Part shown: one piece after another, positions 10,904 through 13,366 of the stretch
How the letters are laid out: the number at the start of each line of letters is the position of its first letter
Position numbering within the stretch: the first letter of the stretch is position 1
NCBI GenBank assembly: GCA_012033055.1
Contig: JAAUPR010000009.1
Location: forward strand, 50,626-83,636
Origin: Limnothrix sp. RL_2_0
GTDB lineage: Bacteria > Cyanobacteriota > Cyanobacteriia > Cyanobacteriales > MRBY01
DNA: 33,011 nt
Reading direction: 5' to 3'
The notes under the pieces: model-generated
The model's database searches: none
Seen by the model: the letters and a program-made list of their open reading frames with translations, nothing else
What the model was told of the DNA's origin: nothing
Made by a program: the position numbers and the translations under genes

Positions 10904-12889
10904 TTACTGTAACTTGGCATTCACACCAATTTGGAAACGACTACCCTCGCCCGGAAATCCGGGGAAAACTTCAAAGTTTTCATCAAAAATATTTTCCCAA
11001 CTAGCTGTGAGAGCAACATTCTCATTGATCGGATATCGCGCACGAAGATCAACGTTGGTATAGCTGCTTAAAGATTGGGTGTTACTGTTATTCACTAGGC
11101 GATCGCCAAGATTTCTCACAAACAAGCCCACATAAATACCTTGGGGATTTTCGTAAGCAACACCAATATTAAAACTGTCTGCACCGGAGAAAGATAATTC
11201 ATTGCCCTCTACTGTAGGGTCTGCATCTTTAAGGATTTTGGTATCGTTTATAGTGTAGTTAACAAACCCATAAAAAGATTTAGAAATTTGTACATTCAGA
11301 GCCGCTTCTAAACCTTGAAATCTAACTTTGCCAACATTCTGGGGTGTGAAAGTGTTGAGGTCAAAATTAATCGCATCATCAACAACATTATTAAAATAAG
11401 TAAGGCGGAATAATGCGCGATCACCAATCTTTTGGTCAACCCCAATATCAAAACTATTCCCTACTTCTGGCTTCAGGTTAGGATTATTAAACGGTGCGAA
11501 AAACAGATCACCTCCAGACGGTACTCGGAAGTTGCGAGCATAATTAGCGCGGAGACTAGTACTATCCGTCACTTGCCAAAGCACACCTGCACTAGGGGAG
11601 GTAAATGATCCATCTGCTAAACTATTAAAATCTTGTCGTATACCGAGATTCGCCTGTAGTTTGGGGGTGACATCTAAGGCATACCGAGCGAAAATTGACC
11701 CTTGATTAATCTGTTCGTCATAGTTTTCAAGACCAAAACTTTCATTCGATGTTTGAATGTGACGATAATCGAAACCGTAGGCAATATTTTGGTTGGCGGT
11801 AAATTGCCAATTATGCTGAATTTGTGCCCCTAAAGAACGACTTTTTACTTCATCGTCAACGGGGAAAAAACCATCGGGATTTTTAAAATAGTAATTATTA
11901 AAATCGGCAAAAATCTTGGTATTGAGTTCCGAATTGTCACTATTTCCTAGGCGGGATTTAACCCCAAGGGAAAGCAACATGTCATTTGTATATTGACTCG
12001 CATTGGGGCTAAGGCTATTAAATGACCCTACGCCGCTACCAGTGGGAACACCGCCTGGTACACCCAAATCTTTGCTGAGATATAGCCCTTTAAAAGTTAC
12101 TTCATGGCGATCGCCAACCATCCCTAAGACTTGCAGATCTAAATTTTGCAGTGCAGCATCTGCGTTATCACGAGTTCCAGAAACACCAATATTCTCTAAA
12201 TCGTAGCCAAAGTCATTTTCCGCAGCGGTACGTTCATAACCTAAGCGAACAGCAATTTTTTCTGAACCATTACTTACCGAAATACTTTGTCGGTTATAAC
12301 CAAAACTGCCAATTTCTGCCCCAACATTGACCGTCGCTGGCTCGTCGAGATTCAGTTGGCTGGTTACAATATTAATCACTCCGGCGATCGCACTAGAACC
12401 GAATAAGGTGGAGCCGCCCCCCGGAATAAATTCAATCCGTTCAAGGGAGCCAACACTAATTTTTGAAAGGTCAAATTCACCAAAAAATCCCAGCTCATTA
12501 ATTGGGCGACCATCAAGCAAAATGAGGGATTGGGTAGAGCGTCCTCCCCGAATAAATTGACCACTTTGAGCACCTAGTTGTGTGCCAGCAGTGCCATCGG
12601 TAAAGATTCCCGGAAAATATTGCAAAGCCTCATTCACTGTGCGGTAGCCTTGGGCTTCGATCTGCTCGCGGTCAATCACATAGGCGGGACGACTAGATTC
12701 TTTGACTGTACCTTCCTGACGAAAAGGAGCATAAACGGGTTGGTTAAGAATGTCATCAATAATGTTGAATTCAAACTCATAAATTTCGAAGTCTTCTACT
12801 GGGGAAGTCGGGGTTTCTTCTTGGGCGATCGCCGCCGATGCGCTAGTGACTAAAAGTAGGGCAGCTAAAGATAGAGATTTGGTGATCAT
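10904..12889 (-). CDS. btuB: TonB-dependent outer-membrane receptor, probably cobalamin (BtuB)
   Basis: This 661-residue outer-membrane transporter has a signal peptide MITKSLSLAALLLVTSASAAIA with predicted cleavage near residue 22. The plug domain spans about residues 60-180 (PAYVIDREQIEAQGYRTVNEALQYFPGIF, FIRGGRSTQSLILLDGRPINELG, IEFIPGGGSTLFGSSAIAGVINI). The rest has the alternating strands of a 22-stranded barrel. The C-terminus reads FQIGVNAKLQ and lacks the usual terminal aromatic residue, which is unusual. There is no Shine-Dalgarno sequence before the ATG; the 20 bases before it are A/T-only except for one G. It is the first gene after the cobalamin riboswitch, which supports B12 as substrate over siderophores. 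Length suits BtuB-type receptors. Confidence 0.9.
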   Translation of the reverse strand: MITKSLSLAALLLVTSASAAIAQEETPTSPVEDFEIYEFEFNIIDDILNQPVYAPFRQEGTVKESSRPAYVIDREQIEAQGYRTVNEALQYFPGIFTDGTAGTQLGAQSGQFIRGGRSTQSLILLDGRPINELGFFGEFDLSKISVGSLERIEFIPGGGSTLFGSSAIAGVINIVTSQLNLDEPATVNVGAEIGSFGYNRQSISVSNGSEKIAVRLGYERTAAENDFGYDLENIGVSGTRDNADAALQNLDLQVLGMVGDRHEVTFKGLYLSKDLGVPGGVPTGSGVGSFNSLSPNASQYTNDMLLSLGVKSRLGNSDNSELNTKIFADFNNYYFKNPDGFFPVDDEVKSRSLGAQIQHNWQFTANQNIAYGFDYRHIQTSNESFGLENYDEQINQGSIFARYALDVTPKLQANLGIRQDFNSLADGSFTSPSAGVLWQVTDSTSLRANYARNFRVPSGGDLFFAPFNNPNLKPEVGNSFDIGVDQKIGDRALFRLTYFNNVVDDAINFDLNTFTPQNVGKVRFQGLEAALNVQISKSFYGFVNYTINDTKILKDADPTVEGNELSFSGADSFNIGVAYENPQGIYVGLFVRNLGDRLVNNSNTQSLSSYTNVDLRARYPINENVALTASWENIFDENFEVFPGFPGEGSRFQIGVNAKLQ

Positions 12890-12961
12890 ATAATTTAAAA
12901 ATCTTTTTTAATAGATGAAGTTTGTTTCAAGAATTGCATTGAGAAATCAAGTATTTTAGAT

Positions 12962-12990
12962 AAAAAATCTACAGCAAATTTACTCTGCTA
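12962..12990 (-). terminator. Weak terminator-like hairpin in the btuB leader
   Basis: On the - strand TAGCA pairs with TGCTGTA (two-base bulge) around a loop of about nine bases, followed by GA and TTTTTT. The stem is short and A/T-rich, so its strength is doubtful. It is positioned where a transcriptional expression platform could act, upstream of btuB. Confidence 0.3.
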
Positions 12991-13028
12991 ACCCAGTCAA
13001 AATCGGGTAAACAGATTGATTATTTCCA

Positions 13029-13058
13029 CTAAAAGATATCGACCTAAAAGATATCGAT
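13029..13058. repeat. 15-base tandem repeat in the btuB leader
   Basis: CTAAAAGATATCGA occurs twice (13029-13042 and 13044-13057) with a 15-base period; each copy contains the palindrome GATATC. On the - strand AAGATACGA can fold back on TCGATATCTT, so it may be part of an RNA hairpin rather than a protein-binding site. It could also be a simple slippage duplication. Confidence 0.55.
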
Positions 13059-13160
13059 AATTATTCGTATCTTGTCCTTAGCAAATAAGACAAAATAACA
13101 TGTTAGAAAATAGAAATTGCCTCAAACACTGAGCTGGCAACAGAAAAAGACTTCTAGACA

Positions 13161-13199
13161 TCACCTGTACCCCGCAGATGTTGATAAATGAGTATGCAT
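13161..13199 (-). CDS. Possible 12-codon leader ORF overlapping the riboswitch P13 hairpin
   Basis: ATG at 13199 opens MHTHLSTSAGYR and stops at TGA 13163-13161. The last bases overlap the ATG of the next small ORF as TGATG, the geometry of translational coupling. The coding part contains the whole P13 hairpin. There is no Shine-Dalgarno sequence (AAAAAAAC precedes the ATG), so translation is uncertain and chance occurrence is possible. Confidence 0.22.
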   Translation of the reverse strand: MHTHLSTSAGYR

Positions 13200-13329
13200 G
13201 TTTTTTTAGATCGGCGGGCATTCTGACTTAGAAGTGAAGGGCACTTCATCACAGTTGCGGGACAGCGATGGTTTCGCACCATTCTTTCCCCATTACTTTT
13301 GCCGACTGCTCCTCGACAAAACCGATAAG
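13162..13329 (-). promoter_or_regulatory. Cobalamin (AdoCbl-type) riboswitch upstream of btuB
   Basis: On the - strand the aptamer contains the family landmarks in order: GGTGCGAAACC (P4 region), GCTGTCCCGCAACTGTG (P5/L5, 13266-13250), AAGTGCCCTTCACTT (P6), and the B12 box AGTCAGAATGCCCGCC (about 13228-13213). The closing strands GTCGGC and GCCGA pair. Twenty-eight bases after the B12-box end, CATCTG-CGGGGTA-CAGGTG (13180-13162) forms a P13 hairpin. Its loop GCGGG is fully complementary to CCCGC in L5, the kissing-loop contact known from this class. High cobalamin should stabilise the off state and repress btuB-cpdA-btuF-btuC. The hairpin is far from the btuB start, so the read-out is unclear. 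Confidence 0.93.
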
Positions 13330-13333
13330 AACA

Positions 13334-13366
13334 TTATTATACAGCAGGCGATCGCCTTTACTGCAA
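13334..13366 (-). promoter_or_regulatory. Promoter of the btu riboswitch transcript
   Basis: A perfect -10 element TATAAT lies on the - strand at 13341-13336, preceded by TG one base before it. The -35 is poor (TTGCAG at 13366-13361 with a 19-base gap, or GCAGTA at 17). Transcription would start near 13329, just before the riboswitch closing stem and after the stop codon of the ATP-grasp gene at 13384. A HIP1 site GGCGATCGCC lies in the spacer. Confidence 0.6.

Follow-up and report, generated by a model that had tools for sequence, protein, structure and literature searches.

In the enterobacterial btuB riboswitch, the P13 hairpin masks the ribosome site of btuB itself. The stretch of Limnothrix sp. 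RL_2_0 DNA analysed here (33,011 nucleotides; hereafter the window) raises the question of what such a hairpin does when it lies far from its gene. The ATG of btuB at position 12889 is located 273 nt past the end of P13, and it has no Shine–Dalgarno (SD) sequence. The preliminary description of the window had given the distance as about 270 nt and had noted the missing SD sequence. Both points agree with the measurement, and the SD sequence is absent from all six btuB genes of the genus. The features of the locus are collected in Table 1. The btuB gene and the cpdA-like, btuF-like and btuC-like genes that follow it (to 7768) likely form one operon.

Table 1. Features of the btuB locus in the window (all on the minus strand)
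Feature	Position	Strand	Basis or remark
TATAAT, probable -10 element	13336–13341	-	identical in 6/6 genus btuB leaders
Cobalamin riboswitch aptamer	13196–13341	-	RF00174 match
CCCGC of loop L5, predicted kissing partner of L13	13257–13261	-	sequence
B12 box AAGUCAGAAUGCCCGCC	13229–13213	-	sequence
P13 hairpin CAUCUG-CGGGGUA-CAGGUG	13162–13180	-	sequence; conserved pairing
GCGGG complementary to L5	13175–13171	-	sequence
GGGG in L13, SD of the leader ORF (GAGG in relatives)	13170–13173	-	sequence
Leader ORF (uORF), GUG 13164 or in-frame AUG 13161 to UAA 13080–13078	13078–13164	-	
Candidate weak terminator-like hairpin within the uORF (UUGCC/GGCAA, then UUCUAUUU)	13116–13141	-	terminator scan
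Gap between uORF stop and btuB, 188 nt	12890–13077	-	poorly conserved
btuB-type TonB-dependent receptor, 661 aa, without SD	10904–12889	-	PF00593, PF07715
cpdA-like phosphoesterase	10829–10053	-	PF00149
btuF-like periplasmic binding protein	10037–8838	-	PF01497
btuC-like FecCD permease	8832–7768	-	PF01032

The riboswitch and the frame that opens in P13

The covariance-model search with RF00174 gave a full-length match at 13341–13196 with 55.9 bits (E = 1.7e-11; the gathering score is 31.5). This is the sole RF00174 match in the window and the sole one found in the 4.13 Mb draft genome. According to the score and the complementary letters of L5 and L13, the element is a cobalamin riboswitch whose ligand binding and response are predicted. 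The preliminary description had made the same assignment, and the B12 box, the L5 loop and the downstream P13 hairpin that it had recognized were all located.

The very start of the match is a TATAAT sequence, which we take to be the -10 element and which is invariant across the six genus genomes. Because of this identity, the transcript probably begins near 13329, with the aptamer at its 5′ end. The promoter scan detected no minus-strand promoter. As the scan also overlooked the conserved TATAAT, it is a weak test and no proof of absence. In the same weak scan, the region downstream of 13160 likewise gave no minus-strand promoter; a transcription start there would have spoken against the reading of the preliminary description. 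Just upstream of the TATAAT, a GGCGATCGCC palindrome (window positions 13347–13356), presumably HIP1, is shared by all six leaders of the genus. A D-Ala-D-Ala ligase-like gene ends about 42 nt upstream of the aptamer match.

The 3′ arm of P13 ends in GUG, an AUG follows next in the same frame, and the loop carries GGGG. The frame that opens here has 28 codons from the GUG or 27 codons from the AUG, and the peptide from the AUG is MSRSLFLLPAQCLRQFLFSNMLFCLIC. The arrangement of these letters indicates that P13 masks the SD sequence and the start codon of the uORF, not the ribosome site of btuB. Since P13 thus covers a ribosome site, even though it is that of the uORF, the switch itself is an ordinary translational one: the next frame has its ribosome site masked, but that frame is not the regulated gene. 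What is unusual is how the signal is relayed from this ORF to a gene lying 188 nt downstream. The preliminary description had implied that the ribosome site of btuB is out of reach of the hairpin and had stated that the read-out may be unusual. This part stands, but it had overlooked that P13 does mask one ribosome site, that of the uORF.

The other five genus members have the same order of aptamer, CAUCUGCGAGGUACGGAUG, an ORF of 28–33 codons, a gap of 151–236 nt and btuB. This comparison of leader lengths had been proposed in the preliminary description, which would have been weakened by conservation ending at the aptamer; conservation instead extends through P13 and the open frame.

Cobalamin riboswitches of other cyanobacteria

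The survey covered 111 loci, including that of the window, from 100 genomes of nearly all the same order. The loci are a part of the matches listed, picked roughly from the best score downward, and neither the loci nor the pairs formed from them are phylogenetically independent. Two distant loci from a separate search for related loci were left out. The P13 motif was found in 110 of the 111 loci, and the exception (L004) was dropped. The six pairs of P13 are formed in 110, 108, 108, 104, 90 and 77 of the 110 loci, and exchanges of G-C with A-U and of C-G with G-C are observed. The pairs kept and exchanged over these loci indicate that P13 is beyond chance; folded alone, the hairpin of the window has a predicted energy of -4.3 kcal/mol.

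The CCCGC of L5 occurs in its context in 103 of the 110 loci, and the CTGTCCCGC context in 101. L13 is GCGAGG in 102 loci irrespective of the gene downstream, and GCGAG in 106. The exact complementarity between GCGGG and CCCGC reported in the preliminary description is present in the window. However, P13 is closed by G13175, and a fifth kissing pair would need P13 to be opened at this base; the pairing of CGGG with CCCG needs no opening. GCGAG retains four of the five pairs with CCCGC, as against five of five for GCGGG. Since GCGGGG occurs in the window alone among the 110 loci, the exact complementarity is a local peculiarity. The base concerned is 13172, a G in the window and an A in 108 of the 110 loci; the G would make the kissing with L5 firmer, yet gives a wobble in the SD sequence. 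At four loci (L061, L065, L082 and L084), the P13 loop is GCGAGUU, a weakened SD sequence, and the 34-codon uORF is nonetheless well conserved among them.

With a start-codon rule that prefers a long frame, the frame opened in or just after P13 has at least 100 codons in 43 of the 110 loci (direct class) and is shorter in 67, comprising five frames of the small gene cbtB and 62 short ORFs. Pfam domains were tallied on the first long frame called, and some of these calls are possibly wrong frames. The tally for the 62 short-ORF loci is CbiM 12, MetE 11, TonB plug 11, HupE 9 and DUF1636 6; for the 43 direct loci it is HupE 13, CbiM 11, DUF1636 6, CobW 5, CbiX 4, TonB plug 2 and MetE 0. All 11 metE targets and 11 of the 13 TonB-receptor targets therefore belong to the short-ORF class: the sampled metE genes are always, and the TonB receptors mostly, reached via a uORF. 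An SD sequence is present at 17 of the 62 downstream genes of this class. Since a TonB receptor opens directly in P13 at L044 and L086, and since uORFs of 7–8 codons exist (L024, L040, L087, L100 and L154), a uORF is not required for the control of TonB-receptor genes.

A second set of 69 further loci, some of them near copies of other loci and the set hence not fully independent, was searched with a slightly wider P13 pattern. The pattern was found in 62 loci, with a long frame in 33, a short frame in 26 and no start codon in three. Four cbtB frames and a 95-codon frame (L185, no Pfam match) were set aside, leaving 21 short frames. Among the seven loci without the pattern, L170, L171, L173 and L183 have P13-like variants by eye. 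Three second-set loci outside the class yet with the pattern are likely chance matches. For L117 and L172, the frame begins unusually far from the SD motif, 17–18 nt past it. Three metE loci from other orders (L116, L124 and L137; PF08267) likewise have uORFs, of 18, 31 and 37 codons.

The cbtB frames of 61–66 codons begin in P13 (L016, L019, L030, L076, L090, L114, L168, L187 and L189) and are a real direct client that is mistakable for a uORF. Four of the five frames in the first set and two of the four in the second were tested, and all six matched PF09489 at E ≤ 7e-5, three of them below the Pfam cut-off; the others were assigned by likeness. At six loci (L025, L040, L091, L095, L105 and L109), a protein family of about 145–155 aa (WQxxxGYWQxxF...), not prominent in the Pfam tally, follows the uORF. 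In the metE leaders L013, L048, L049 and L060, the gap is partly conserved: by eye, an AGGG/CCCU stem bridges the uORF stop codon and a second stem (GUUCACU...) lies beyond it, with apparent pair exchanges.

The length of the uORF is confined to a narrow range. Among the 62 short frames, 55 have 17–53 codons, three are longer, four have fewer than 10 codons and none has 10–16. When the following 300 nt were shuffled (n = 200), a mean of 22.9 and a maximum of 31 frames fell in the 17–53-codon range, and each of the remaining two reading frames gave 15. The result was similar under a cruder start rule, and 18 of the 21 short frames of the second set are in this range. These counts indicate that the narrow length range is not due to chance. 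At loci with other outer P13 pairs (CAGAAUCAUG, CAGAUUAUG, CAGAUAAUG), the AUG is still retained immediately outside the stem, and thus it is no mere by-product of the pairing.

In 11 of 12 related pairs, the identity of the uORF is higher than that of the following 140 nt, with p < 0.05 in six. The same tally was obtained with the gap length set by the gene call, where the pair L061/L065 is inflated. Alignment-gap columns number five in the uORFs versus 23 in the 140-nt stretches. The nearest btuB leaders (L005/L007) share 96% identity in the uORF, 96% in the aptamer and 77% in the following 140 nt. In nine close pairs (L005/L007, L014/L018, L014/L034, L018/L034, L021/L031, L025/L109, L036/L095, L048/L060 and L069/L081; one identical pair and spurious pairs of distant loci were excluded), the 93 changed codons comprise 27 synonymous and 66 nonsynonymous ones. 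The changes by codon position are 35, 37 and 59, in what is a weak test. The frame is kept and the peptide hardly, a pattern that indicates little selection on the peptide and suggests that what matters is the passage of ribosomes.

Against a functional leader ORF, the uORFs of the genus have a mean identity of 0.41, little more than the 0.34 of the gap, and six of the 12 pairs are not significant. The uORF might accordingly be a relic or side-product, left by an ordinary riboswitch that lost its gene or bypassed by a second btuB promoter in the gap, and the two loci with a directly opened TonB receptor would fit. A decaying frame is expected to have random lengths, however, which is not what the 17–53-codon range and the empty 10–16-codon class suggest. 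The pair identities and the -10 sequence invariant before the aptamer also argue against a relic, and we consider it unlikely. It is very improbable that the uORF product has a function of its own, be it as a small protein or as a sensing leader peptide. Several families have a loose MxVxSxF start in common, and residues are shared within related pairs, but the genus peptides are barely alike except for L005/L007, and nonsynonymous changes at least equal synonymous ones in the close pairs.

The proposed route from the leader ORF to btuB

The preliminary description had also stated that cyanobacteria lack Rho, so that polarity is not available. In the genome of the window (97% complete), the best match to rho has 23.4 bits versus a cut-off of 509, and none of the 40 genomes searched exceeds the family cut-off, which eight of 14 controls exceed. 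As no rho gene was found in this genome, Rho polarity is not available as the relay. An Rfam search of the 188-nt gap gave no match at E ≤ 1, and the aptamers were the sole matches at gathering scores in 20 loci. Folding of the whole leader of the window was no better than that of shuffles (z = -0.63).

On the basis of the P13 arrangement and the recurrent uORF, we consider it probable that the element is a cobalamin OFF switch with a translational platform whose direct client is the leader ORF, and that translation of the uORF decides the fate of the mRNA. Since the same module of SD sequence and start codon in P13 works directly on genes in 43 of the 110 loci, the switch should work on the uORF. 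When cobalamin is bound, L5 would kiss L13 and P13 would be shut, so that the SD sequence in the loop and the start codon in the 3′ arm would be closed to ribosomes. When cobalamin is low, P13 would open and ribosomes would read the 27–28 codons of the uORF. The passage of ribosomes, not the peptide, would then let the full-length btuB-cpdA-btuF-btuC mRNA build up. In the most likely route, the untranslated leader would be degraded or its transcription would be cut short.

Transcription might be cut short by intrinsic termination under the control of translation: ribosomes on the uORF would prevent a terminator from folding, and transcription would otherwise stop before btuB. The terminator-like hairpin of the window was matched by one of 15 shuffles and outscored the other 14. 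In 40 loci, the best terminator score exceeded that of shuffles by 1.5 ± 0.7 (s.e.m.). Five loci (L009 of the same genus, L017, L018, L036 and L099) beat all 15 shuffles and five more were equalled or beaten by one, about twice the chance expectation in total. The four related metE leaders that retain the stem across the uORF stop codon by eye would fit, and a terminator function has been postulated for the riboswitch of Synechococcus sp. PCC 7002, according to PMC10878165. On the other side, the mean excess is small, 10 of the 40 loci have no candidate, the positions vary between loci, and the best candidates in the five other genus leaders sit elsewhere than at 13141–13116. No common terminator element or place was found among the 40 loci. 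The structure metagene around the uORF stop gave no common hairpin; the uORF is slightly less structured than shuffles, and the region 40–70 nt past the stop slightly more. A terminator of this kind is thus possible but doubtful.

Translational coupling, in which ribosomes leaving the uORF start again at btuB or those on the uORF unfold a structure covering the btuB start, seems unlikely, although the absence of an SD sequence at btuB would suit it. The uORF stop overlaps the next called start or lies within 15 nt of it in eight of the 62 loci, as in Mycobacterium tuberculosis ppe2, with doubtful TTG starts in three (L047, L068 and L110). In 47 loci, however, the gap is at least 100 nt. Re-initiation can serve the few overlapping or adjoining loci, but hardly a gap of 188 nt. 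When the uORF was blocked, the predicted access of the gene start changed by 0.017 ± 0.010 in 40 loci; in the 28 loci with a control, the change was 0.029 versus 0.017 for a blocked control segment. General refolding of the gene start on uORF blocking was not found in the 40 loci. We infer that decay of the untranslated leader and early loss of transcription are the relay candidates left for a uORF whose translation decides the fate of the btuB mRNA.

Known systems and implications

The nearest described precedent for a leader ORF controlled by a riboswitch appears to be the ppe2 riboswitch of M. tuberculosis. According to PMC11260477, its L13 hairpin masks a uORF (uPPE2) that PPE2 requires, chiefly because ribosomes re-initiate where the two frames overlap at AUGA. 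In both systems, the L13 hairpin contains the SD sequence and start region of a short ORF, and the downstream gene has no SD sequence; the ppe2 gene depends on the uORF, as proposed for btuB here. The uORF stop does not adjoin the gene start in the window: the AUGA overlap and Rho of the ppe2 system are replaced by a 188-nt gap and no Rho found. A further difference is that the aptamer here matches RF00174 over its full length and that the layout occurs across many genera and targets. The enterobacterial btuB riboswitch shares the aptamer, the L5–L13 kissing letters and a P13 that masks a ribosome site, but the masked site here is that of the uORF.

The riboswitches of Synechococcus sp. PCC 7002 and Anabaena PCC 7120 are similar in RNA class and in their cyanobacterial targets of B12 uptake and related functions. 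In the available part of PMC10878165, the Anabaena riboswitch has an effect at the mRNA level, with the alr4027 transcript behind it about 100-fold higher without cobalt; the mechanism is only postulated there, and that part mentions no uORF. RNA polymerase peaks near the riboswitch in S. elongatus (PMC3219970). The cyanobacterial RNA-level effects, which come from other loci that may or may not have a uORF, would fit the relay without proving it. Transcription-level activity of cobalamin riboswitches is described for ten of 15 Gram-negative taxa (PMC12121620). Among the open full-text matches listed, titles and abstract openings name no uORF under a cyanobacterial cobalamin riboswitch, and such a report may be in print.

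More tentatively, and with somewhat less than even confidence, the relay may be lineage-wide in cyanobacteria, which lack Rho. The same module would be placed either on the gene or on a disposable frame of 17–53 codons located 100–500 nt upstream, and the translation of that frame would determine, by a Rho-independent route through decay or elongation, whether metE, btuB or cobalt-transport mRNA is present.

The leader ORF gives an explanation of the role of a P13 hairpin that lies far from its gene. The counts (62 of 110 loci, then 21 of 62) suggest that the first client is not the next large gene in about half of the riboswitches examined. For tools built on cyanobacterial riboswitches, a reporter fused at the gene start and one fused at the uORF start may disagree. 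The general question of how leader translation may control a downstream mRNA in bacteria without Rho is thereby made testable.
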